Of a stretch of 27,709 nucleotides of DNA, positions 702 to 22,000 are shown one piece after another. The translations under genes were made by a program, and so were the position numbers. Numbering within the stretch: position 1 is the stretch's first letter; each line of letters begins with the position of its first letter. The notes under the pieces are model-generated. The model saw nothing but the letters and a program-made list of their open reading frames with translations. It did not search any database and was not told where the DNA came from. The DNA comes from a virus: the IMG/VR virus record IMGVR_UViG_3300017745_000037, positions 1-27,709 of that record; one strand, given 5' to 3'.

Positions 702-707
702 GTGTAA
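702..707 (+). promoter_or_regulatory. GTGTAA motif before the 717 gene
   Basis: TTTTAAGTGTAATAAT precedes the ATG at 717, with 9 bases between the core and ATG. It is one of nine related sites in the window (see findings). If it acts as a -10-like element, transcription would start at or next to the ATG. There is no Shine-Dalgarno sequence here. Confidence 0.5.
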
Positions 708-1544: not shown

Positions 1545-1550
1545 GTGTAA
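1545..1550 (+). promoter_or_regulatory. GTGTAA motif before the zinc-ribbon/sigma operon
   Basis: TTTTAAGTGTAAAAAT repeats the first 12 bases of the site at 702 exactly. It lies 6 bases after the stop codon of the tail gene and 43 bases before the ATG at 1594. A 14-bp inverted repeat lies in between. It would head the operon that encodes the zinc-ribbon protein, sigma factor and terminase. Confidence 0.5.
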
Positions 1551-1551
1551 A

Positions 1552-1589
1552 AATAATAACTTTAAAAAAACTTACTTAAAGTTATTATT
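1552..1589. repeat. Perfect 14-bp inverted repeat (hairpin) before the zinc-ribbon gene
   Basis: The left arm AATAATAACTTTAA (1552-1565) is the exact reverse complement of the right arm TTAAAGTTATTATT (1576-1589), separated by a 10-base loop. It begins one base after the GTGTAA core and ends 4 bases before ATG 1594. The stem is almost all A-T and has no following T-run, so it is a poor intrinsic terminator. It could be a 5'-leader hairpin that hides or exposes the start codon, or an operator. Confidence 0.6.
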
Positions 1590-1593
1590 GATT

Positions 1594-1914
1594 ATGATTA
1601 AATTTTGTTCTGAATGTGGTGTTAAAGTTGAATATAAGTTCAGCCCCCCTAAATTTTGCTCTAGTTGTGGCTCGCCAATGGGTGTTGCTACAATAAACGA
1701 ATCTAAACCATTAGATCGAAATGTTAGGTCTTCTAGAAAAATAGAAGCTATTGGTGACGACCAAACAGATGCTGATAGCGTTCCTAATATTTCAAAATTA
1801 GATTATGAAATCGAAGATTTTGGTGCAAGTGTAACTCATACAATTGGCTCTTTAGCTGGAAAAGAATTACCCAAGAAAAGAAAAATTGTAAGAAGAAACA
1901 TTGATGAGTTATAG
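1594..1914 (+). CDS. Small zinc-ribbon protein coupled to sigma factor
   Basis: This 106-residue protein has an N-terminal zinc ribbon with Cys5, Cys8, Cys22 and Cys25 (C-S-E-C then C-S-S-C-G). A variable, acidic middle follows, and the C-terminus is basic (K-K-R-K-I-V-R-R). A TTG at 1588 is an alternative start, but it lies inside the hairpin arm; ATG 1594 is preferred. The gene overlaps the sigma-factor gene by 11 bases, so the two are probably translationally coupled. Zinc ribbons commonly bind nucleic acid or contact RNA polymerase. A role as transcription accessory factor to the neighbouring sigma factor is an inference from position alone, with no family match recalled. Confidence 0.6.
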   Translation: MIKFCSECGVKVEYKFSPPKFCSSCGSPMGVATINESKPLDRNVRSSRKIEAIGDDQTDADSVPNISKLDYEIEDFGASVTHTIGSLAGKELPKKRKIVRRNIDEL

Positions 1915-2578
1915 ATTCGAAGATAAAATCGAAGAGATAGAAAGGGCTCTAGAAAAGAAAAGAAACAAATGGGATTTAGATGCAGTCCCATCTGTTGACT
2001 ATGATGATATCAAACAAGTTATCATGACCCACATATATAAAAAGTGGCATTTGTGGGATCAAACTAAGCCAATAGAACCTTGGCTAAGTAGAGTTGTATC
2101 TAATCAATTTAAAAACTTATTAAGAAATCACTATGGGAATTATGTAAGACCTTGTCTTAAATGCCCGCACAATTTAGGGGGAGATTCTTGTGGACTTAAT
2201 CCTTCTGGCAAACAAGAAAATACATGTACAGAATTTAAAGAATGGGAAAAAAGAAAAAAATCAGCATACGACATAAAGCTGGCAGTGACAATAGAAAATC
2301 ATACAAACGAAATACAACAAAGAGAAGATGAGTTTATAGACCTAGAAAGAGCGACTAAAAAAGTATCTATAGAATTAAAGCAATACTTAACTGAAAAACA
2401 ATTTATAGCATTCGAAATGTTATTTGTGGAAAACCATTCAGAAGAAAAGGTAGCTAACTTTTTAGGTTACAAAACAAATGAAAAAAGAAGGTCTGCTGGA
2501 TATAAGCAAATTAAAAATTTGAAAAAGATATTCCAAGAAAGGGTAAAACAAATTTTAATAAACAAAGATATAATATGA
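1904..2578 (+). CDS. Phage RNA polymerase sigma factor with embedded Cys cluster
   Basis: This 224-residue protein has the two-domain plan of small sigma-70 factors. Residues about 33-79 resemble region 2: an acidic D-Y-D-D-I start, then a W-L-x-R-V-V-x-N-x-F-x-N helix ending R-N-H-Y. Residues about 162-211 resemble region 4 (L-T-E-K-Q, then a helix-turn-helix-like stretch with a basic second helix). Between them Cys84, Cys87, Cys96 and Cys108, with nearby His89, form a probable zinc-binding insertion, which ordinary ECF sigma factors lack. The start is ATG 1904 rather than TTG 1901, giving an 11-base overlap with the zinc-ribbon gene; the stop overlaps the next start as ATGA. It probably redirects host RNA polymerase to phage late promoters, as T4 gp55 does. 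The fold assignment is by eye. Confidence 0.7.
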   Translation: MSYRFEDKIEEIERALEKKRNKWDLDAVPSVDYDDIKQVIMTHIYKKWHLWDQTKPIEPWLSRVVSNQFKNLLRNHYGNYVRPCLKCPHNLGGDSCGLNPSGKQENTCTEFKEWEKRKKSAYDIKLAVTIENHTNEIQQREDEFIDLERATKKVSIELKQYLTEKQFIAFEMLFVENHSEEKVANFLGYKTNEKRRSAGYKQIKNLKKIFQERVKQILINKDII

Positions 2579-3612
2579 CAGACTTAACTAACAGTCAAAA
2601 GGAAAAAATTCTAAATGAATTTGAAAAGAACCCAAATATTATAGATATCACAAAAATAGTATTTGAAGACGAAAGTTTAGACGGCCGATCTAAGGAAGGT
2701 AGAGCTGTTACAAAATTTTTAGCAGAAAACGGTTTAAAAGCAAAAACTACAAAACATAAAAAAGTAGAATCTATAGAATTAACTCAAGAACAAGAAAACA
2801 TCATAGAGCAGAGAGTTGATGCTGGTTGGTCATCTTTACAAATAGCAAAAGAGTTATTTGGAAACTCAGTTAAGAATCTAAGCAAAGAGCAAAGAACTGT
2901 GCACGAATACGTTTTAACATTAGATGTTGAAGCTCCTCCAGAAGAGATGCCAACATACGTAGCTCCACATGCTATTTCTAGAATTATAAAAAAAATTAAC
3001 GATTCGACTGGATATGGATTAGAAGAAAATAAAATGTCCAGACATCAATACGCTTGTTGTGAAAAATTAAGAATTAATCTAAATAATTCAAGACTTGTGG
3101 CTATTATCAATAATTATATTAACCCTAGGGACAAAGAGCTTTTTGAACAAGAGTTTATACGGCTAACTTGGGATAAGCCAGATTTAACCCCAGACGAACT
3201 GAATCTTTATATGAACGTATGTAAAGAGATAATTAATTTAGAATTGATAACTGGGCACCTGCAAAAATTAAACGAAATGTTTGAGAGTGCCGACGATCAA
3301 GACGAAATGACTGTAAGATTAGCGGAAATTATAAAGGCCAAAAGTTCTGAGTATCATCAGTGTGAAAGTAGAATTGAAAACTTAACAAAAAAATTACAAG
3401 GAGATAGAGGCGAAAGAATGAAGAACAAACAAAAAGAAACTGCATCTTTTTTATCAATTGTTCAATTGTTTCAAGAAGAGGAGGAAAGAGCTAATATGGT
3501 AAGGATTGCAGAAATGCAAAAAGAACTAATTAAAGAAGAAGCTAAAAAAATTGAAGGTATGGCAGCTTGGAAAGCTAGAATTTTAGGTATAGGTATAGAT
3601 GATGTCTTATAA
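2575..3612 (+). CDS. Helix-turn-helix, coiled-coil protein; probable small terminase subunit
   Basis: This 345-residue soluble protein has a helix-turn-helix-like segment around residues 71-105 (a glutamine-rich helix, then G-W-S-S-L-Q-I-A-K-E-L). A long, highly charged helical C-terminal half is probably coiled coil. The modular plan of N-terminal DNA-binding motif plus helical oligomerisation region suits a terminase small subunit, which recognises the packaging site. Position supports this: only the nuclease gene separates it from the large terminase, all in one overlapping operon (ATGA overlap before, 11-base overlap after). It is longer than most small terminases (commonly 100-200 residues), so a transcription regulator or other DNA-binding packaging factor is possible. 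Confidence 0.5.
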   Translation: MTDLTNSQKEKILNEFEKNPNIIDITKIVFEDESLDGRSKEGRAVTKFLAENGLKAKTTKHKKVESIELTQEQENIIEQRVDAGWSSLQIAKELFGNSVKNLSKEQRTVHEYVLTLDVEAPPEEMPTYVAPHAISRIIKKINDSTGYGLEENKMSRHQYACCEKLRINLNNSRLVAIINNYINPRDKELFEQEFIRLTWDKPDLTPDELNLYMNVCKEIINLELITGHLQKLNEMFESADDQDEMTVRLAEIIKAKSSEYHQCESRIENLTKKLQGDRGERMKNKQKETASFLSIVQLFQEEEERANMVRIAEMQKELIKEEAKKIEGMAAWKARILGIGIDDVL

Positions 3613-4525
3613 ATGCAAAGAATGTGGAGAAGAGTTTAATTCTGAAAAAGCGTTACACGCTCACATAAAAAAACATGGTTTTTATGTTGCTGATTATTAT
3701 GTTGAGCATTATCCAAGATTTAATAAATTAAACGGCAATCCTATACAGTTCAAAAACAAAGATCAATATTTTTCAACAGACTTCGCGAATGTAAGTCAAA
3801 TGAGAAAATGGTGTGAAGAGTCTAATGGTAGCGAAGTAAAAAATTACATACTAAAAACTTTAGCTGAAAGAGTGAGATTAAAGGGGTGGCAGTATGCGCC
3901 AAGCCATGTAGAGCTATATAAAACAAAAATGCCAGATATAAATATCTATAAAAAGTATTGCGGGGGATACAATAAAGCTTGTGCGGAAATAGGGATAGAG
4001 CCTTTATTCAAAAGGCCGATGCCTCAAAAATTTTACGATAATTTTGATGTAAAGGTATTTGTGGACACCAGAGAGCAGAAGCCTTTATACTTCAAAGATT
4101 CAGAAAGTTTAAAATTAGATTTTGGTGACTATACACTAGCTGGAAAAGATTTCACTAATACATTTGTAGATAGAAAAAGCGCAACAGATTTTATCGGGAC
4201 TTTTGGTCAAGGTTTCGAAAGATTTAAAAGAGAAATGAAAAGGTGTGTAGAACTGGATAGTTATATGTATGTAGTTGTTGAAAAATCCATAGAAAGCATT
4301 TACAGCGATTATTTTCCAGGTAAAAAAACATCTACTTTAAATTGGGCGTTATCTAACATGGTAAAACTACAACACGAGTTCCCTAGGAGGTGTCAGTTTG
4401 TATTTACTAGATGTAGAGCTCAGAGCGAAATGTTGATTCCAAAGTTATTAGCTTTGGGAAAAGATTTGTGGGAAACCGATATTCAATATTATATAGAAGA
4501 AGAAGATGTCTTGGGAAACGGGTAA
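3602..4525 (+). CDS. C2H2 zinc finger/ERCC4-type nuclease
   Basis: This 307-residue protein (from ATG 3602; ATG 3599 would add one Met) opens with a textbook C2H2 finger: Cys5-x2-Cys8-x12-His21-x3-His25. A middle region with Y-P-R and Q-F-K-N-K patches follows, then a C-terminal ERCC4 nuclease domain. The key motifs are D155-T-R-E, G-D176-Y and D190-R-K-S-A-T-D, matching the XPF/ERCC4 signature GD...ERK...D with Asp in place of Glu. Such enzymes cut branched or flap DNA using a divalent metal. Its place between the small-terminase candidate and the large terminase, with 11- and 20-base overlaps, suggests it clears branches from replicated DNA before packaging or assists terminase cutting. The nuclease assignment is strong; the packaging role is inferred. 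Confidence 0.82.
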   Translation: MSYKCKECGEEFNSEKALHAHIKKHGFYVADYYVEHYPRFNKLNGNPIQFKNKDQYFSTDFANVSQMRKWCEESNGSEVKNYILKTLAERVRLKGWQYAPSHVELYKTKMPDINIYKKYCGGYNKACAEIGIEPLFKRPMPQKFYDNFDVKVFVDTREQKPLYFKDSESLKLDFGDYTLAGKDFTNTFVDRKSATDFIGTFGQGFERFKREMKRCVELDSYMYVVVEKSIESIYSDYFPGKKTSTLNWALSNMVKLQHEFPRRCQFVFTRCRAQSEMLIPKLLALGKDLWETDIQYYIEEEDVLGNG

Positions 4526-6359
4526 TCAAAAACCTATTAAAAGGGAAGATATAAATCAACAAGTTTTAGAACTTGAGGGATACCTTGAAGACAATAAAGC
4601 GAAGTATTGGTTATACAAATTTTTAAAAGAAAACGTAACGTTTACAACAGAACTCTTAACTGGTATAGAATTATTTCCGTTTCAACATATGGCTGTAAAG
4701 GCCATGATGGAGAATGATTACTTTTTGGGCGTATGGTCCCGTGGTATGTCGAAATCCTTTTCTACGGGCATTTTCGCGCTGTTAGACGCTATGCTGAACC
4801 AAGGAGTACATATCGGAATTATATCTAAATCGTTTCGTCAGTCTAAAATGATATTTAGAAAGATAGAGGATATAGCATCCGACAAAAAAGCAGAACTATT
4901 TCAACAGTGTATAGGTAAGGTTACAAAATCAAATGACGAATGGTCTATGGTGATAGGCAAAAGCAGGATTACAGCTTTACCCTTGGGCGATGGTGAAAAA
5001 CTCCGTGGTTTCCGTTTCCAAAGGATTATTGTAGACGAATTACTCTTGATGCCAGAAAAAATTTATAATGAAGTTATTATGCCGTTCCTTGCTGTTGTAG
5101 AAAACCCAACAGAAAGACAAAAAATTAAAGATGCTGAAGATCAAATGATTAAAGCTGGCAAAATGAAAGAAGAGGATAGAAAAGAATGGCCAAGTAATAA
5201 AATGATAGGTCTTTCATCTGCATCATATAAATTTGAATATTTATACAAATTGTATCAAGCTTATGAAAATATGATATTCAATCCTGGGGCGAAAAACCAA
5301 GGAAGAAGATGTATTATGCAGTTTTCGTATGACGCCGCACCGAAAGCTTTGTATGATGAAAATTTAATTAGTCAAGCTAAAGGTTCTATGAGTCAATCGC
5401 AGATTGATCGAGAGTTTAACGCTATATTTACTGACGATAGCGCTGGTTACTTTAAAATTAGTAAAATGGCTGATTGTACAATTGTAGATGGGGAATCGCC
5501 TTGTGTGGAGGTGGCTGGAGATCCAGACGCTCAATATATAATGGCTTTTGACCCCTCGTGGTCAGAGTCTGAAACTTCTGATGATTTTGCCATACAGATT
5601 ATAAAATTAATGCCAGAACAGAAAAAAGGTGTTGTAGTGCACAGCTATGCGTTACCAGGAACAAATCTTAAAAAACATATTATATACTTCAAGTATTTAT
5701 TAGAACACTTTAATATAATTATGATTGTAGGGGACTATAATGGTGGTGTCCAGTTTTTAAATTCAGCAAACGAAAGCGACATATTTAAAAGAGCAAATCT
5801 AAAAATAGATTGTTTTGAATCAGATTTTATACATCCACAAAACTATGTTAATGATCTAAAGGATGCAAGAAGGCAATATAATTTATCTAGTGGTGTTATA
5901 TGTAATTTGCGTAAACCTACATCACAATGGATTAGAAATGCGAATGAAATGTTGCAAACATCTTTCGACAGAAAGAAACTATATTTTGCCGCAACAGCTA
6001 TGGATGAAAATTATTCCATACAAAAATCCAAAAAAATACCAATTAAAGATTTAAAGTTTTCCAAGTATGAAGACGAGAAGAACGTCGGCGCTAAGATGAT
6101 TGATTTTATTGAGCATCAAAAAGATATGATTGACTTAACAAAAGCTGAATGTGCACTTGTACAAGTGACAACTTCTGCTGGAGGCACACAAAACTTTGAT
6201 TTACCACCTAATCTAAAAAGACAAAAAGGCGCAGATAGACCAAGAAAAGATTCGTATTCCGCTATTGTACTAGGAAACTGGGGTATGAACATATATTATG
6301 ATATGATGGACATACCAGAAGAAAACAATATGGGATTTACTCCAATGTTTATTAAGTAA
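4506..6359 (+). CDS. terL: Terminase large subunit (ATPase-nuclease packaging motor)
   Basis: This 617-residue protein has the length and order of large terminases. The ATPase domain carries a Walker A-like loop at residues 78-84 (S-R-G-M-S-K-S, with Ser where many have Gly before Lys). Walker B is near 173-178 (R-I-I-V-D-E, with Asp177 and Glu178). A likely coupling motif (L-S-S-A-S) follows. The C-terminal RNase H-like nuclease has the expected acidic residues in F-D-P-S-W near 350, V-G-D-Y-N-G near 410 and R-K-D-S-Y-S near 582. It docks on the portal, pumps DNA into the prohead and cuts concatemers. The ATG at 4506 lies 20 bases inside the nuclease gene, so expression is probably coupled. 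The portal gene follows after 51 bases. Confidence 0.93.
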   Translation: MSWETGNQKPIKREDINQQVLELEGYLEDNKAKYWLYKFLKENVTFTTELLTGIELFPFQHMAVKAMMENDYFLGVWSRGMSKSFSTGIFALLDAMLNQGVHIGIISKSFRQSKMIFRKIEDIASDKKAELFQQCIGKVTKSNDEWSMVIGKSRITALPLGDGEKLRGFRFQRIIVDELLLMPEKIYNEVIMPFLAVVENPTERQKIKDAEDQMIKAGKMKEEDRKEWPSNKMIGLSSASYKFEYLYKLYQAYENMIFNPGAKNQGRRCIMQFSYDAAPKALYDENLISQAKGSMSQSQIDREFNAIFTDDSAGYFKISKMADCTIVDGESPCVEVAGDPDAQYIMAFDPSWSESETSDDFAIQIIKLMPEQKKGVVVHSYALPGTNLKKHIIYFKYLLEHFNIIMIVGDYNGGVQFLNSANESDIFKRANLKIDCFESDFIHPQNYVNDLKDARRQYNLSSGVICNLRKPTSQWIRNANEMLQTSFDRKKLYFAATAMDENYSIQKSKKIPIKDLKFSKYEDEKNVGAKMIDFIEHQKDMIDLTKAECALVQVTTSAGGTQNFDLPPNLKRQKGADRPRKDSYSAIVLGNWGMNIYYDMMDIPEENNMGFTPMFIK

Positions 6360-6366
6360 AGTTGCC

Positions 6367-6383
6367 AAAGTTACTTTAACTTT
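6367..6383. repeat. 7-bp inverted repeat abutting a GTGTAA motif
   Basis: AAAGTTA (6367-6373) and TAACTTT (6377-6383) flank a 3-base loop and end one base before the GTGTAA core. The A-T stem is weak and has no proper T-tract, so a terminator is unlikely. It may be an operator or a chance palindrome in AT-rich spacer. Confidence 0.35.
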
Positions 6384-6389
6384 GTGTAA
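6384..6389 (+). promoter_or_regulatory. GTGTAA motif before the portal gene
   Basis: ACTTTGTGTAAAGAAC lies in the 51-base gap between terminase and portal, 21 bases before ATG 6411. There is no Shine-Dalgarno sequence between it and the ATG. It would start the head-gene transcript. Confidence 0.5.
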
Positions 6390-6410
6390 AGAACTTTATA
6401 ATAACAAGTT

Positions 6411-8372
6411 ATGCCTAGAAAATATACAAAAAAATCAGACTATTGGAATAAATTTACCAGACCGATAAATCAAACATCTCAAGCAAGTCAAAATGTAGAG
6501 CCTGCTTCAATAGGATCCGCCTACCATGTTTCAGAAGCATCATATAGTAGATCGGGCAGTATTAATAATTTAACATCACAACAAACATCAACTAGAATCA
6601 ATAGGTCTTCTATTGCTAAACCAGTCAACAAGTTTAGTCAAATTAGAGGAGGATTATTACCTTATGAAATGTCTAGTGACGGAATCAATGTCAGAGAAGC
6701 TATTGAACTATGTCAAAAAGCTTATGCCAATGTTCCTATTTTTAGAAATACAATAGACATGATGTCTGAGTTTGCCAATACTGATGTATATTTAGAAGGA
6801 GGCAACGCAACATCTAGAAGCTTCTTTAAAAAACTCTTCGAAAAAATTAAACTATGGGATTTAAAAGATCAATACTTTAGAGAGTATTATAGAAGTGGTA
6901 ACATATTTCTTTACAGAATTGACGGCAAATTTAACTTAGATGATTTTAAGAACTTTTCTAAAAACGTATCTGAGTTGCCCGCAGAAAACAAATTCCCGAT
7001 TAGATATATACTATTAAATCCATTTGAGATAGTAGCTAAAAGAAGCACTGTATTTAGCTCGAAAGATGGTGCTTATGCTAAAATATTATCAGAATTTGAT
7101 ATGGAAAGATTATCTAATCCTAAAAACGATTATGATAAACAAATATTTGAAGCATTAGATCCAGAGGTAAAAAAACAAATTAAAGATGGGGCTTATTTTA
7201 AAGACGGACTAAAAATTAATTTAGAAAACGAGAGAATAGCATATAGTTTTTATAAGAAACAAGACTACGAACCATTTGCTGTACCATTTGGATATCCTGT
7301 TTTAGAAGATATCAACGCAAAGATGGAAATGAAAAAAATGGATCAAGCTATCATGAGAACTGTAGAAAACGTCATTCTTATGATAACAATGGGTACGGAT
7401 CCAGATAAGGGTGGCATAAATCATCATAATGTGAAAGCTATGCAAACATTATTCTCAAACGAATCTGTGGGCAGAGTTTTGGTATCTGATTATACAACAA
7501 AAGCGGATTTTGTTATACCAGATATTAACAAAGTGGTTGGGCCACAAAAATACGAAGTTATTAATAAAGATATTAAAGAAGGTTTGCAAAATATCATTTT
7601 AAATGACGATAAGTATAACGGAGCTCAAATTAAAGCAAGAGTATTTTTAGATAGACTTAAAGAAGCTAGAGAAGCTTTTATAAATGATTTCCTACAACCA
7701 GAAATTAAAAGAATTGCAAAAGACTTAGGTTTTAGATCTTATCCAGATGTAAAATTCCAAGACGTTGATTTAAGAGATGAGGTTCAACTTATGAGAGTCA
7801 CAACAAGACTTATGGAGTTAGGTATTTTAACTGCAGAGCAAGGTATGCAAATCATACAAACTGGTAGATTCCCATTAGCGGAAGAGTTAGATGCAGCTCA
7901 AGATAAGTTTGTTGAACAAAGAAAGAAGGGTCATTATAACCCGATTGTAGGAGGTATACCAATGATAGAAGACGATGCACCAGTCGAATCAGCTGATGAA
8001 CAAAAGGTTCCTGGAGTACCAGGCAGACCAGTTGGGACAACTGAAGCAAAAGAATCAATTTCGAAAGAAGCCATACAGTCAACTGTTTACGAAATAGAAG
8101 CTTTGCAAACACTAGCGACGCAAGAAATGAAAACCAAAATGGGTAAAAAAAGACTAACTAAACAACAAAAAGAAATGATCGCAAGTTTATGTGAATCTGT
8201 TGTATGCGGTAGTGAAAAAGAAAATTGGACAAGTACAATGATTTCTTGTGTAAATGACTATACAAAGATTGAAAGTTTGAACACATTAAGTGAAATTTAT
8301 GATGTCTCAGATGCTCATCAATTAGAAATTTATCCATCAGCAATTTTATACCACTCAAATGAAAGAAATTAA
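6411..8372 (+). CDS. Portal protein
   Basis: This 653-residue protein follows the large terminase, the usual portal position. The first ~80 residues are Ser/Thr/Asn-rich and low complexity. A mixed alpha/beta core follows, with G-I-N-V-R-E-A-I-E-L-C near 100 and a long helical stretch (I-K-E-G-L-Q-N-I-I, then a Lys/Arg-rich helix) like the portal stem and crown helices. The segment G-I-L-T-A-E-Q-G-M-Q-I-I-Q-T-G-R-F-P is typical of phage portals near the C-terminal end of the core. A ~130-residue C-terminal tail follows, Pro/Gly-rich then charged. The portal is the dodecameric ring at one capsid vertex through which DNA enters and leaves. The next gene starts 14 bases inside its end. Confidence 0.85.
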   Translation: MPRKYTKKSDYWNKFTRPINQTSQASQNVEPASIGSAYHVSEASYSRSGSINNLTSQQTSTRINRSSIAKPVNKFSQIRGGLLPYEMSSDGINVREAIELCQKAYANVPIFRNTIDMMSEFANTDVYLEGGNATSRSFFKKLFEKIKLWDLKDQYFREYYRSGNIFLYRIDGKFNLDDFKNFSKNVSELPAENKFPIRYILLNPFEIVAKRSTVFSSKDGAYAKILSEFDMERLSNPKNDYDKQIFEALDPEVKKQIKDGAYFKDGLKINLENERIAYSFYKKQDYEPFAVPFGYPVLEDINAKMEMKKMDQAIMRTVENVILMITMGTDPDKGGINHHNVKAMQTLFSNESVGRVLVSDYTTKADFVIPDINKVVGPQKYEVINKDIKEGLQNIILNDDKYNGAQIKARVFLDRLKEAREAFINDFLQPEIKRIAKDLGFRSYPDVKFQDVDLRDEVQLMRVTTRLMELGILTAEQGMQIIQTGRFPLAEELDAAQDKFVEQRKKGHYNPIVGGIPMIEDDAPVESADEQKVPGVPGRPVGTTEAKESISKEAIQSTVYEIEALQTLATQEMKTKMGKKRLTKQQKEMIASLCESVVCGSEKENWTSTMISCVNDYTKIESLNTLSEIYDVSDAHQLEIYPSAILYHSNERN

Positions 8373-12248: not shown

Positions 12249-12254
12249 GTGTAA
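12249..12254 (+). promoter_or_regulatory. GTGTAA motif after the capsid terminator
   Basis: ATTCAGTGTAATATATAAT lies between the capsid terminator and ATG 12263, with 8 bases between core and ATG. Because a strong terminator lies just upstream, new transcription must begin near here if the following genes are expressed independently. This makes it the best single argument that the motif is a promoter. Confidence 0.6.
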
Positions 12255-12262
12255 TATATAAT

Positions 12263-12898
12263 ATGGAAGAAGATAAAAATCTACATGACTTAAAGGGAGA
12301 ATTTGTTGAAGATATGGCTAACGCTATAGAAAACGATGAAATCAGAAACGATGATCCTTTGGAAGAACTAGAAGAAGCTAATGGAAAAGAACAAGAATCA
12401 GAAGCTTCGGAAGAGCCTAATTTGGATGAATTAGAATATGCTGATGGCAAGGAAAGGGATGAGCTAGATTTGATTGAAGAACAAGAAAAAATCTTTGGCA
12501 CAAATATGTTGAGCCCTTTTAAAACTGCGGACATGAGAATATTCAGACGCAATCTAGAAACAATGACAAGAGATCAAATGAGCTCTATGGCAGAGCGTAC
12601 AGCTTGCAGAATATATTCAAATGAGCAAGAACAAAAAGAAGAACTTACAAGAGGTTTTGTTGACTGGTGTAAGATGAATGCAGGAGCTTTCCAAACAGAT
12701 GCATCAAAAAAAGCAGAAAAAGGGGCTAGAGCTAAAGCATTTGAGGATTCTGTAAGTGTAAAAGAATTAGAGGAAAAGCTTAAATCTAAATCATTATCAG
12801 ATATTCAATCCACTGCAGCTCGCTTAGGATTCAATCCTGGCTTTGATAAAAATAGGCTTATTAATCTAATTAAGCAAGAATATCAAAGACAATCATGA
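12263..12898 (+). CDS. Acidic protein with SAP/Rho-N-like C-terminus
   Basis: This 211-residue protein starts at ATG 12263. A GTG 45 bases upstream extends the frame but lies in the terminator stem and is rejected. The first ~75 residues are strongly acidic and contain an imperfect duplication (L-E-E-L-E-E-A-N-G-K-E and L-D-E-L-E-Y-A-D-G-K-E). A helical middle follows. The last ~40 residues (K-S-L-S-D-I-Q-S-T-A-A-R-L-G-F, then N-R-L-I-N-L-I-K) have the helix-extended loop-helix pattern of SAP or Rho N-terminal nucleic-acid-binding motifs. Its stop overlaps the next start as ATGA. A head-completion or DNA-contacting virion role is possible; function unknown. Confidence 0.6.
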   Translation: MEEDKNLHDLKGEFVEDMANAIENDEIRNDDPLEELEEANGKEQESEASEEPNLDELEYADGKERDELDLIEEQEKIFGTNMLSPFKTADMRIFRRNLETMTRDQMSSMAERTACRIYSNEQEQKEELTRGFVDWCKMNAGAFQTDASKKAEKGARAKAFEDSVSVKELEEKLKSKSLSDIQSTAARLGFNPGFDKNRLINLIKQEYQRQS

Positions 12899-15952: not shown

Positions 15953-16530
15953 ATTTTTAAATTTTGGAATTCTTTTTTATATGTTTTTAAAAAATGAGAT
16001 ATATATTTTGTATTCTGAAATCTCGCTTTTCTAACTTTCTTTTTGGACTGTATACCAAAACCAGATCTACTTGCATCTGATTTCTTTTTTAAATAATAAC
16101 CAAGACCAGATAATCCTGTTTCCATAGATTGTGCCCAACTTCTACCAGTCATATATGGTAGAGGAGTCGCTTTAAATATGTCTTCGGCTTCTGGCAACTG
16201 AACAGAAAATGTAGCACCTTTTGTTGATCTTTGACCTATGTTGATTGTTGTTGTATTTAAAAGATCTAAAATAGGAGCTATTGGGTCATCGCCTTGTTCG
16301 AAACCAATAAATGAAAAAAGATTTGTAACTCCTCCAAGTGTGCCACTAATATTATCAGCCTGGACTCCAGCTTTTATTTCTTGAGTAATTGGGTGATTTA
16401 AAAAATCTGTTATCATTTCTTTCTTTTTCTGGGCAAAAGAAGATTTAATCAGTTTCCTGACCGTTGGTAAAACCAAAGCACTTGATTGTGATCTTAAAGA
16501 TTTTTGTATTTCTAGAGTTAACAAAGACAT
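15949..16530 (-). CDS. Tail-completion/neck protein candidate (HK97 gp10-like position)
   Basis: This 193-residue protein has a basic helical N-terminus, a middle with F-L-N-H-P-I-T-Q-E-I and N-I-S-G-T-L-G-G, and a strongly basic, aromatic C-terminus. The H-P-x-T-x-E pattern followed by a Gly-rich loop recalls HK97 gp10-type neck proteins, and the order fits: it follows the head-closure candidate and precedes tail genes. It overlaps its neighbours by 1 base (TAATG) upstream and 4 bases (ATGA) downstream, so the block is translated as one unit. The assignment rests on position and a weak motif resemblance. Confidence 0.45.
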   Translation of the reverse strand: MSLLTLEIQKSLRSQSSALVLPTVRKLIKSSFAQKKKEMITDFLNHPITQEIKAGVQADNISGTLGGVTNLFSFIGFEQGDDPIAPILDLLNTTTINIGQRSTKGATFSVQLPEAEDIFKATPLPYMTGRSWAQSMETGLSGLGYYLKKKSDASRSGFGIQSKKKVRKARFQNTKYISHFLKTYKKEFQNLKI

Positions 16531-16988
16531 TATTCTTCCATTGGTTTGAGATAAAAGTGGTAATACTGTGGCCCAAAAATACCAGTTGGATTACCTTTTG
16601 TTTCTATTGTGTATTTTCTACCCTCGAACTCGCATCTTGTAGCTTCTTTTAATAATTCAAAACCAGTAGCATTAACAGTAATTCTAACTTCGCCATCCAT
16701 AACTGTAAAATCTGATTGGCTGTTTATGTTTCCGTCTGCAAAACCCTTTTCTTTTGCGTCTATATATTTAATTCTTGCTTTAATGGTTTGTTGTTGAACG
16801 GTTTTTGTAACAGTTTTCTTACCACCGCCAGATCTTCCGTATATTCCATTATACTCAGAACTAGCAGCTATTGAAACGGTTTTGCCTTCTTTGAAAACCG
16901 TGATGTTTCTCGCAAAGGTTTCGTGTATGTCATCTATGATTGCTTTAATCGTAGATTTTTGCGATTCTGATATAAGTGGAGTGGCCAT
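16530..16988 (-). CDS. Head-closure (stopper) protein candidate
   Basis: This 152-residue protein has a helical N-terminus, a Gly-rich loop (Y-G-R-S-G-G-G-K-K), and a beta-rich second half with D-G-E-V-R-I-T-V-N and E-F-E-G-R-K-Y-T-I-E ending in a strand H-F-Y-L-K-P. The small beta-barrel-like layout with a Y-x-I strand near the end recalls SPP1 gp16/lambda gpFII-type head-closure proteins. It is first in the minus-strand block. The start is ATG 16988, with the GTGTAA motif 8 bases upstream and no Shine-Dalgarno sequence. The role is inferred from position and fold impression. Confidence 0.45.
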   Translation of the reverse strand: MATPLISESQKSTIKAIIDDIHETFARNITVFKEGKTVSIAASSEYNGIYGRSGGGKKTVTKTVQQQTIKARIKYIDAKEKGFADGNINSQSDFTVMDGEVRITVNATGFELLKEATRCEFEGRKYTIETKGNPTGIFGPQYYHFYLKPMEE

Positions 16989-16996
16989 GTTACTTT

Positions 16997-17002
16997 TTAC
17001 AC
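16997..17002 (-). promoter_or_regulatory. GTGTAA motif (minus strand) before the head-closure gene
   Basis: On the minus strand AAAAAGTGTAAAAAGTAAC is followed directly by ATGG, with 8 bases between core and ATG 16988. It heads the whole minus-strand block. Confidence 0.5.
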
Positions 17003-17009
17003 TTTTTAT

Positions 17010-17015
17010 GTGTAA
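17010..17015 (+). promoter_or_regulatory. GTGTAA motif (plus strand) before the tail-assembly operon
   Basis: TTTTATGTGTAAATAAC precedes ATG 17035 by 19 bases and mirrors the minus-strand copy at 16997-17002. It would start the transcript of the chaperone-position genes. Confidence 0.5.
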
Positions 17016-17034: not shown

Positions 17035-17334
17035 ATGATAGCGCAAGATTTTCTAAATGATAGATCTCATCATCATATAAGGTTTTTATTTAAATCTTAT
17101 TTAATGTTGTTAGAGGATTTAAAAAAAGAGCATGACATCAGGTACAAAAAGTTGTACGAATTGTTGCCAGAAGATCAACATGATCTAATTAAAATGGCTG
17201 ATTATTTCGATGAAGAATATTACAATCAGTACAGAAAAAAAGTATTAGATATTGGAAATTCTGTTTTGCGAGATTATAATAGTGAGTTAGAAAACTTAAT
17301 AGTTGAATTCAGGTTTAAGGATAATGAAAGATAA
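17035..17334 (+). CDS. Small helical protein at the head of the tail operon (unknown)
   Basis: This 99-residue, predicted all-helical protein is rich in Leu, Tyr, Lys and Glu, with no Cys or membrane segment. It is the first plus-strand gene after the inverted block and overlaps the next gene by 11 bases. Position before two further helical proteins and the tape-measure gene suggests a tail-assembly factor or chaperone, but it is not recognised. An AAGG sequence lies too close to the ATG to be a good ribosome site. Confidence 0.5.
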   Translation: MIAQDFLNDRSHHHIRFLFKSYLMLLEDLKKEHDIRYKKLYELLPEDQHDLIKMADYFDEEYYNQYRKKVLDIGNSVLRDYNSELENLIVEFRFKDNER

Positions 17335-19025: not shown

Positions 19026-19031
19026 GTGTAA
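19026..19031 (+). promoter_or_regulatory. GTGTAA motif before the tape-measure gene
   Basis: TTTAAGTGTAATTATCC lies at the end of the chaperone-position gene, overlapping its stop, 15 bases before ATG 19047. AGGA immediately precedes the ATG at too short a distance to be a normal ribosome-binding site. Confidence 0.48.
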
Positions 19032-19046
19032 TTATCCTTATAGGAT

Positions 19047-22000
19047 ATGGCCGACGCAAGAATAAATGTAGATTTTATACCAAGGACTAAAAGAGTCGAA
19101 GCCGCGCTTGCGAAGATAAATGCAGCAGCGAAAGGCGTAGATTTTGGAGGGGGAGTTAGGGGTTTAGATAAGTTATCTAGACCTTTGGGTAAAATTACAG
19201 GACAGGCCAACGAATTCCAAAAATCCTTAGAGGCTTCCAATGCTCGTGTTTTAGCTTTCGGAGCTTCGGTTGCTGTAATAAATAAACTATCAGAAGCATT
19301 TGGTTCTTTGGTTAGTAATACAGTTAAAATTGAAGCAGCGTTTACTAAAATAGGTACAATTTTAGGTGGAACTAGAGAAGACTTAGAAAAATTTGGAAAT
19401 GGTATTTTTAGAGTAGCCCAACAAACTGGTAACTCATTTGATCAAGTAGCAGAGGGTGCGTTAGAATTAGCTCGTCAAGGTTTAAGCGTTGAAGAGTCCT
19501 TATCAAGAGTTGAAACAGCACTAAAATTAGTTAGAGTTGCGGGTGTCGATTCCCAAAAAGCTGTTGGTGGTTTAACTGCAGCGATCAAAAATTTTGGAGA
19601 TGCAGGTTTAACTGTGGCTCAAATAGCTGACAAGTTAGCAGAAGTAGATACAAGATTCGCTATATCTACTGATGATTTAATAGATGGTCTTAAAAGAGCT
19701 TCCGCCTCTGCTCAAGTAGCTGGAGTTTCTTTTGACGAGTTGTTGGCTGTGGTCACAACTGTTGAAGAAAGAACTCAACGTGGTGGTGCTGTTATTGGTA
19801 ATGCCTTTAAAACTATTTTTGCTCGAGTTAGAAGAACAGACACGCTACAAGCTCTCAAAGATGTAGGTATACAAGTTTTAGATTCTGCTGGAAACATTAG
19901 AGGCGCTATTCCTATATTTAAAGATTTAGGTGTTGTTTTGAATGAGTTAGGAATGCAAAGCACTGAAGCCGCAGGTTTGATAGAAAAAGTCGCTGGTGTT
20001 AGACAGGGTGATATATTAATTAATTTAATTAGAGAACTACAAAAAGGGCAAAATCAATTTGCAAAAGCATTAGACGTTTCAGCTGGAGCATTTGGCGCTT
20101 TGGATAGAAAGAATCAAGAGTATTTAAAAACATTAGATGCTACAATTAATAAATTAGGAGTAGCTGCAGAAAAATTATCTTTTGTTGTTGGAGAAACTGG
20201 ATTTGCTGATGCTGCAAAAAATATCTTAAATACATTTGAAAAAGCCATTACTGGAATAACTGATATATTGGATGGAGATAGTATAGGCTCTAAATTTGCA
20301 AACGGTATTTTAAAAGGTGTTGGAAATATATTAACTGGTCCAGGATTAGCGCTTATAGGAGCTGTATTTATTAAATTATTTAGAGACCTTGCTGTCTTTG
20401 GAATAGATTCTTTAAAAACTTTACTCGGAATAAATAAAGCCTCGCAACAACAAGCGGCTTTACAAGCATCTGTTTTACAAACACTTTTATCTAATCAAGC
20501 TATCCAAGCACAGATTTTAAAACTAGAGGGTGACAAGATAGCGCAAGAACAATTACTTTTACAAGTCTACAATCAGCAATATGCTGCTTTAGCTAAAATA
20601 CAAGGAATTGCTAAAACCGTAACACCAGGATTATTTGGAGCTGGCTTAAGAGGTGGATCTGAAGGTGTAAGTAGAAAAACTGGTAAAGCCTCTGGTGGAT
20701 ACGTTGCTAGTGAAGCTAAAGATGTTTCTAGAGGTGTAGGTGGAGCTCCATCAAGTTCTAAAGTTGTATCGATACCAAATTTTGCTTTTGGTGGAGGTAG
20801 AAAAGGTACAATGGTTGCAAATACAAGCGAATACATTGTTCCTAATTATGCTGGTGGAGGAGACGCTATATTTAATCAAGATATGGTAAAGGCCATGGGT
20901 TTACCTTCTGGAGCAAGAAAGGTAAGAGCTGCTGGAGGATTTATACCCAACTTTGCTTCTCCAGGTAGTGCTGATTATTTTAATAATTTAAGAAGAAGAG
21001 AAAAAAGCGGCAAACAATTAAGTGCAGAAGAAGCAGAAGATTTAGCTGCATACAGAGCTAAAAATAAAGCAAGTGTTCTTAACATGGACGCTAGAAATAA
21101 ATTAGGGGTTGCGGCTTTATTTGGAAAATCTAAAGTAGCAAATCCTACAACAAATTTTGGAAAACTTTCAACTACAGAAAGGGGTATTTTAACTTCGTCA
21201 GGATTTGGAGACGTACAAAAAGTTAGGCTTTCTAATGTTCAAGTTAGGTCTTTAAATAATGCAACTGGAAGTCTTAAAAGAGAAAAAGAAAAAAGCGATA
21301 GAAATGTCATATCAAAATTATTCTCAGAACCAACTTACAATTATGGATCTTCTTTATTAGATTTCTTCTCTGGAGATGAAAAGAATAGAACTTTAGGAGC
21401 AATGAAAAAAAGATCTAATGGTGCAAATTTATTCTCCACTTCTGTATTGGGTGGTATTTTTGAAAGCGCTATTAGATTAGTAACTGGAGGAGCAAAATCA
21501 ATTCCAGATTTTGATTCAGCTCTACAAGATCAAACACCTTTTGATTTTGAAGAAGGCGGAAAAGCTAGTAGTAGATTTAAATCAAGATTTGGATTTTCTT
21601 CATCTTTAATTAAAGCTGATGCTAAAAGAACTGGAGACCCAGAACAAGTAAGAAGTTTAATTGGGAAAGCTATTAGAGATAGAAGTGTATTTACAAGTTT
21701 AAGAAAAAAAGTTTCAACAGCGTCTAATGGTTATGTACCCAATTTTGCAATGGATCCTTTGTCAGAAGCGATACAAAGAGAAAAAGAAGCTGGTTTACCA
21801 ATGAGTCAAATTAGACTTAATCAAAGTGGTAAATTAAGAAATGCTCAAAACCCATTAGGATTAGCAATCACAAACACAAGAGATGAACCAACTGGTAGAA
21901 TACCAAATTTTGCAGAACCCAATGAAAGTAAAGCTTTTGGTTTATTAATTTTGGCGCAGGCAGCCAGTGGTTTAGCTAGTACTTTTGCAGAAGGTAATGA

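Follow-up and report, generated by a model that had tools for sequence, protein, structure and literature searches.

A predicted ECF-type sigma factor with a cysteine insertion and a putative one-element late promoter in an uncultured phage lineage

The phages of this lineage are represented by hundreds of metagenomic contigs in IMG/VR (at least 599 matches), and among 50,697 GenBank phage records none gave a match above chance to their sigma factor sigma-1. The lineage is uncultured, mostly aquatic and widespread in metagenomic virus collections. In the window studied here, which is a whole virus record of 27.7 kb (27,709 nt), a first-pass annotation had singled out a divergent sigma factor gene coupled to a zinc-ribbon gene and had proposed that the sigma factor could read a GTGTAA motif, with the zinc-ribbon protein as its possible partner.

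The sigma-1 and zinc-ribbon gene pair

The gene pair and its surroundings comprise the following features (window coordinates):

1594..1914, + strand: zinc-ribbon protein of 106 aa, with a CxxCG-x12-CxxCG ribbon, an acidic middle and a basic C-terminal tail
1904..2578, + strand: sigma-1, predicted ECF-type phage sigma factor of 224 aa, with region 2 at about residues 1-82 and region 4 at about residues 149-220
2153..2227, + strand: zinc-type Cys4 insertion of sigma-1, separating region 2 from region 4, Cys84 to Cys108
2575..6359, + strand: conserved block after sigma-1, composed of a 345-aa ORF, an ERCC4-type nuclease and the terminase large subunit (4506-6359)

The coupling of the two genes was confirmed, since their ORFs overlap by 11 nt on the + strand, and it recurs: a zinc-ribbon match was present at 114 of 120 sigma-1 loci (the six others appear to start at or beside a contig end), and in every relative examined the pair is either overlapping or directly adjacent. 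The proximity to packaging genes likewise held. Sigma-1 occurred in all non-redundant terminase loci in which its slot was covered (85/85), 2.6-5.8 kb upstream of terminase, and the block of sigma, 345-aa ORF, ERCC4 and terminase was common to all fifteen sequences compared.

Relationships of the lineage were also recorded. The nearest counterparts of the window terminase large subunit, at 22-28% identity, come from Bacillus phages Slash, Staley and Stills, from Bacillus SPbeta-type phages and from Lactococcus phages. The MAG labels of three contigs conflict (they include Halobacteriovorax and Flavobacteriaceae) and may be binning errors. One relative contains a large cassette (G001:44227-55534) with genes that, judged by eye, resemble those for sugar or sialic acid biosynthesis and glycosyltransferases.

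The zinc-ribbon protein corresponds to Pfam family PF14803 (28.0 bits, over the cut-off), and the Sigma70_r2 match of sigma-1 lies just below the curated Pfam cut-off (22.6 bits versus 24, E 9e-5). With a profile of 47 members, the best sigma match by sequence among solved structures was Streptomyces SigR, a weak one (E 0.37); the sole row above it was a repeat protein matching sigma-1 at the helix-turn-helix only. In the AlphaFold2 model of sigma-1 (mean pLDDT 75, pTM 0.37), both domains were well modelled and the linker between them had little order; its top Foldseek matches were to the ECF sigma factor SigH of M. tuberculosis (E 2e-3). In this predicted structure, residues 1-82 superposed on region 2 of sigmaE at 2.7-2.9 Å and residues 149-220 on an ECF region 4 (3vfz) at 2.1 Å over 62 residues (Z 7.5). 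Domain-wise matches reached Z values of just 7-8, yet nearly every listed row was a sigma factor. Judged on both region 2 and region 4 of the model, sigma-1 belongs with the ECF-type sigmas. A divergent sigma factor with a Cys insertion, as first described, was thereby recovered at the levels of ORF, Pfam match, predicted fold and family alignment.

Conservation among the 47 aligned members was highest in region 2.3-2.4 (81% majority identity) and in the recognition segment of region 4 (87%), and lowest in the insertion (57%). The insertion of the window protein contains Cys residues at positions 84, 87, 96 and 108, of which Cys84 and Cys108 are invariant across the alignment. The complete CCCC pattern (CxxC..C..C) was found in 41 of the 47 members. 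Because the six remaining ones have a shorter insertion with an alternative Cys/His set (CPDQH..H..CPIC type), a metal site has probably been retained despite the changing sequence. The C-terminus of the zinc-ribbon protein is not conserved lineage-wide and ranges from IDDL in the window clade to GRPRK; in two relatives (G009 and G019) the protein ends in an AT-hook-like KRGRPRK.

A GTGTA(A/T) motif upstream of structural genes

Full reading covered eleven long sequences at first, the window among them, and further ones later. In the window, the motif sites and promoter-like elements discussed below are:

702..707, + strand: GTGTAA, putative late-promoter motif, 9 nt before the ATG of gene 717-1538
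1545..1550, + strand: GTGTAA, 43 nt before the zinc-ribbon ATG, present only in the subclade of the window
1583..1588, + strand: TATTAT, -10-like, 5 nt before the zinc-ribbon ATG, putative class B promoter for the zinc-ribbon and sigma-1 genes
6384..6389, + strand: GTGTAA, putative late-promoter motif ahead of portal gene 6411-8372, with ACTTTATAAT after it
12249..12254, + strand: GTGTAA, 8 nt before the ATG at 12263
16997..17002, - strand: GTGTAA, 8 nt before the ATG of gene 16530-16988, member of a divergent pair
17010..17015, + strand: GTGTAA, 19 nt before the ATG at 17035, leadered case with an AGGA/AAGG Shine-Dalgarno-like sequence
19026..19031, + strand: GTGTAA, 15 nt before the ATG at 19047, which starts a 2109-aa gene

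The GTGTAA motif reported at first reading is real, seven of its 14 window copies falling in the 2.2% of the DNA that is intergenic (p ~7e-9). Upstream of genes, AGTGTAA was observed 78 times versus 2.2 expected, in counts that are not independent since many of the promoters are orthologous. With gene starts taken from a simple home-made caller on contigs that are fragments, 65 of 185 sites had the end of GTGTA(A/T) 8 nt upstream of the ATG and 35 had it 9 nt upstream (together 100/185). In 28 further records of the lineage, GTGTAW-N8/9-ATG occurred 192 times versus 47 for the reversed pattern, a 4-fold excess overall, and none of the relatives read lacked the motif, even where sigma-1 identity was as low as 40%. 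Three bacterial MAGs containing such contigs displayed little enrichment (77/67, 62/44 and 136/89 for motif/reversed, 1.2-1.5 fold). A longer pattern, GTGTAAWAATWA with two mismatches allowed, occurred at chance level and was dropped.

Promoter type varied with gene class. The motif preceded 73 of 148 structural versus 7 of 45 replication genes (p 5e-5), and the host-type TTGACT..TATAAT promoter 8 of 148 versus 17 of 45 (p 3e-7). Roughly five AT-rich bases lie 5' of GTGTA(A/T), and no -35 consensus was found upstream of the GTGTA sites. Several motifs directly abut terminator T-runs, so that at these sites a -35 element could not be conserved. Divergent intergenic regions contain one motif per strand. 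Shine-Dalgarno-like sequences accompanied 4% of the sites with the motif at 7-10 nt versus 38% of those at 15 nt or more (p 5e-8), a contrast which points to leaderless and leadered transcripts from one and the same element and not to a ribosome signal. On these sequence grounds we regard GTGTA(A/T) as a lineage-wide, promoter-like motif of one element on late structural genes, from which the late mRNAs are probably leaderless, with RNA starting at or beside the AUG. A literature search brought up no account of GTGTAA promoters in phages.

The zinc-ribbon/sigma-1 operon itself generally displays a different arrangement, designated class B, in which the zinc-ribbon ATG is preceded at 5-9 nt by a TATAAT-like element; TANNNT is present near there in most relatives. 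Between GTGTAA and this ATG, the window also contains a 14-bp inverted repeat (1552-1589, AATAATAACTTTAA...TTAAAGTTATTATT), and related repeats were seen only in the close relatives L083, L087 and L090.

In the terminase-portal gap (window 6360-6395), a AAAGTNACTTT palindrome and further AACTTT copies directly precede the portal GTGTA motif. This arrangement occurred in nearly all relatives having a terminase-portal intergenic region, usually as the only such site of the genome, with 4.3 ACTTT/AAAGT copies per portal promoter versus 0.42 in shuffled sequence. In G009, where the portal gene has moved, a AAAGTTAACTTT variant accompanies it. The palindrome is a candidate operator or packaging-related site. 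Relatives also displayed fused terminator-promoters (e.g. G003:45633, G007:83144 and G005:15008), in which the T-run of an intrinsic terminator runs straight into TATAAT or GTGTAA a few bases before the next ATG.

Two phage sigma factors and the proposed reading of the motif

Sigma-1 is accompanied in this lineage by a second phage sigma factor, sigma-2, of about 185-205 aa, whose gene adjoins those for SSB and dNMP kinase and is present in all relatives holding the replication module. One example is:

L148:17801-18358: sigma-2, sigma-70/FliA/sigma-32-like

The sigma-2 profile matched RpoD, SigA and FliA, and its structure model matched sigma-32 and WhiG. An additional, ECF-like sigma is encoded in genomes G007 and G008. 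These two had been considered as genomes devoid of sigma-2 and were dropped, replication genes being absent as well. No phage multisubunit RNA polymerase was found in 18 records (the control matched in 14/14), so the host enzyme is presumably redirected; in the search for a single-subunit polymerase, the control matched nowhere.

We propose that host sigma-70 promoters (TTGACTTT..TATAAT) would express the early genes, including sigma-2, that class B promoters (TTTATAAT-N5-ATG) would then express the zinc-ribbon/sigma-1/terminase operon, and that sigma-1, rather than sigma-2, would finally read the GTGTA motif and open these promoters, redirecting the host RNA polymerase to the phage late genes. 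GTGTA(A/T) would be a -10-type element with RNA starting at or beside the AUG, hence leaderless late mRNAs. The zinc-ribbon protein would be a co-activator that accompanies the sigma-1 holoenzyme and acts at the AT-rich flank, a role suggested by the common operon and by the basic tail, AT-hook-like in some relatives. The promoter classes can be read directly from the DNA; which sigma factor serves which class we infer.

Co-occurrence and family resemblance lead us to favour sigma-1 as the GTGTA reader, if only slightly. Elements of the GTnnAA kind are ECF-like and would fit sigma-1, and TATAAT would fit sigma-2 or the host sigma factor. Sigma-1 is itself ECF-like and GTGTAA resembles an ECF -10 element more than sigma-70 elements, which speaks for this assignment; the solved complex of an engineered sigmaE region 2 contains GTAAAA. 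Moreover, region 2 of sigma-1 and the motif persist lineage-wide, while sigma-2 has diverged in G019 (32% identity to that of G001) where the motif is unchanged. Against sigma-1 count its gene position within the packaging block, its well-conserved region 4 recognition helix in spite of a motif devoid of a -35, and the early promoter of sigma-2, which is what would be expected of a late-gene activator. The first proposal that the sigma factor could read GTGTAA is retained in part: the motif is conserved on late genes, but a second phage sigma could read it.

That reading, in which sigma-2 recognizes GTGTA and sigma-1 serves another step (e.g. a promoter subset or the coupling of transcription to packaging), is unlikely in our opinion but deserves to be taken seriously. 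The constant association of sigma-2 with the replication module agrees with it, and the TTGACT (TTGACTTT-type) promoter of the sigma-2 operon in most genomes examined indicates that sigma-2 is made early. Likewise, the gp36 sigma gene of phage phiEco32 is located near a dNMP kinase gene. Yet neither sigma-1 nor sigma-2 is detectably homologous to gp36 in profile comparison, the sigma-70/FliA/sigma-32 type of region 2 in sigma-2 fits TATAAT-like elements better, and the G019 divergence just mentioned left the motif the same. Presence or absence of the genes cannot assign the motif to either factor. Twenty-two of 28 sigma-2 contigs were without a sigma-1 match, but the eight of these sigma-1-less contigs for which the whole sequence was read were also devoid of TerL, portal, ORF351 and ERCC4; we consequently rejected such contigs as relatives lacking sigma-1, since they are fragments without the terminase-portal block. 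Among the 85 loci covering the sigma-1 slot, no relative was found to lack the gene, and the predicted fold is that of a sigma factor, so neither of the two checks named in the first-pass annotation refuted its proposal.

With sigma-1 as the favoured reader, its partner could still be an anti-sigma or timing factor that keeps it inactive until late infection instead of a co-activator, which we consider doubtful. Sigma/anti-sigma pairs are often co-transcribed, and the overlapping or adjacent placement of both genes in the relatives examined agrees with this. Zinc anti-sigma factors, however, display a HxxxCxxC helical fold, whereas the sequence of the zinc-ribbon protein reveals a CxxCG..CxxCG ribbon and a tail that is basic and, in G009 and G019, AT-hook-like (RGRPRK).

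It is less probable again that the host sigma-70 holoenzyme reads GTGTA as an extended -10 with some other phage factor, sigma-1 being dispensable. The motif is indeed in -10 register, GTGTAA-N8-ATG aligning with TATAAT-N5-ATG, and it overlaps the -10 of a TTGACT promoter at a presumed ribonucleotide-reductase gene; nevertheless, GTGTA sites display neither a -35 nor a strong T at the last -10 position, prefer structural genes and are little enriched in bacterial MAGs. Finally, a translation-initiation signal, which the fixed spacing to the start codon might evoke, is very improbable given the second motif population at 15-30 nt from the ATG, more often with Shine-Dalgarno-like sequences, and given the occurrence of the motif once per strand in divergent regions and immediately after terminators.

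Taken as a whole, the sigma-1-based model, a two-sigma cascade in which a zinc-insertion ECF sigma and its zinc-ribbon partner make most of the late regulon leaderless via a one-element promoter at a fixed ATG distance, is tentative, and we would not be surprised to see it fail in one of its parts.

Relationships to known phage and bacterial systems

The analogy to T4 gp55 and gp33 drawn in the first-pass annotation holds for a divergent phage sigma factor, a single-element late promoter and a small co-encoded putative partner. It fails at region 4, since T4 gp33 substitutes for this region (PMC2988020) and sigma-1 has its own, conserved one, and at the T4-style hydrophobic-acidic C-terminus that binds the clamp, which was not conserved across the lineage in either sigma-1 or the zinc-ribbon protein. 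The IDDL end of the latter in the window clade was suggestive of such a tail but, not being conserved elsewhere, was rejected. Searches for the beta-clamp (PF02768) gave no match over the cut-off in 9 records, and those for the gp45 clamp (PF09116) gave none, the control likewise remaining below the cut-off.

Phage phiEco32 gp36/gp79 is the closer precedent. Gp36 uses a single-element promoter, tAATGTAtA, with starts 6-8 bp downstream, and is stimulated by the small helper gp79 (PMC8948821). Both systems would combine a phage sigma on host RNA polymerase, a one-element promoter and a small partner protein, and the promoter consensus differs from the GTGTA motif by one base. The motif and its ATG spacing fit a gp36-type promoter, whose geometry applied here would place transcription starts at the ATG. 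The two also differ: gp36 lacks homology to region 4, its sequence revealed no Cys4 insertion, and its gene is among the phiEco32 middle genes, in contrast to the packaging-block location of sigma-1. Since neither sigma is detectably homologous to gp36 (hhalign probability ~0.1% for each), we consider that the sigma-1 system may work like gp36 without filing it in the gp36 family.

Bacterial ECF sigmas (E. coli sigmaE, Streptomyces SigR, M. tuberculosis SigH) share with sigma-1 the region 2 plus region 4 architecture and the predicted fold. Sigma-1 adds to these the zinc-type Cys4 linker insertion and the zinc-ribbon partner, and no -35 was seen in its presumed promoters. Leaderless phage transcripts are produced by the phiKZ non-virion RNA polymerase. 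This enzyme recognizes a late TATG element (PMC5312081) and is, as in phiKZ-type jumbo phages in general, a phage-encoded multisubunit polymerase, contrary to the situation in the sigma-1 lineage, where no such gene was found in 18 records.

If the proposed mechanism is true, zinc insertion and zinc-ribbon partner together would represent a new phage sigma architecture, and host RNA polymerase with a phage sigma may produce largely leaderless late mRNAs. The motif would then predict late genes and transcript starts throughout an uncultured group, and the sigma-1/sigma-2 pair would make it possible to test cleanly how promoters are shared out between two sigma factors of one phage.
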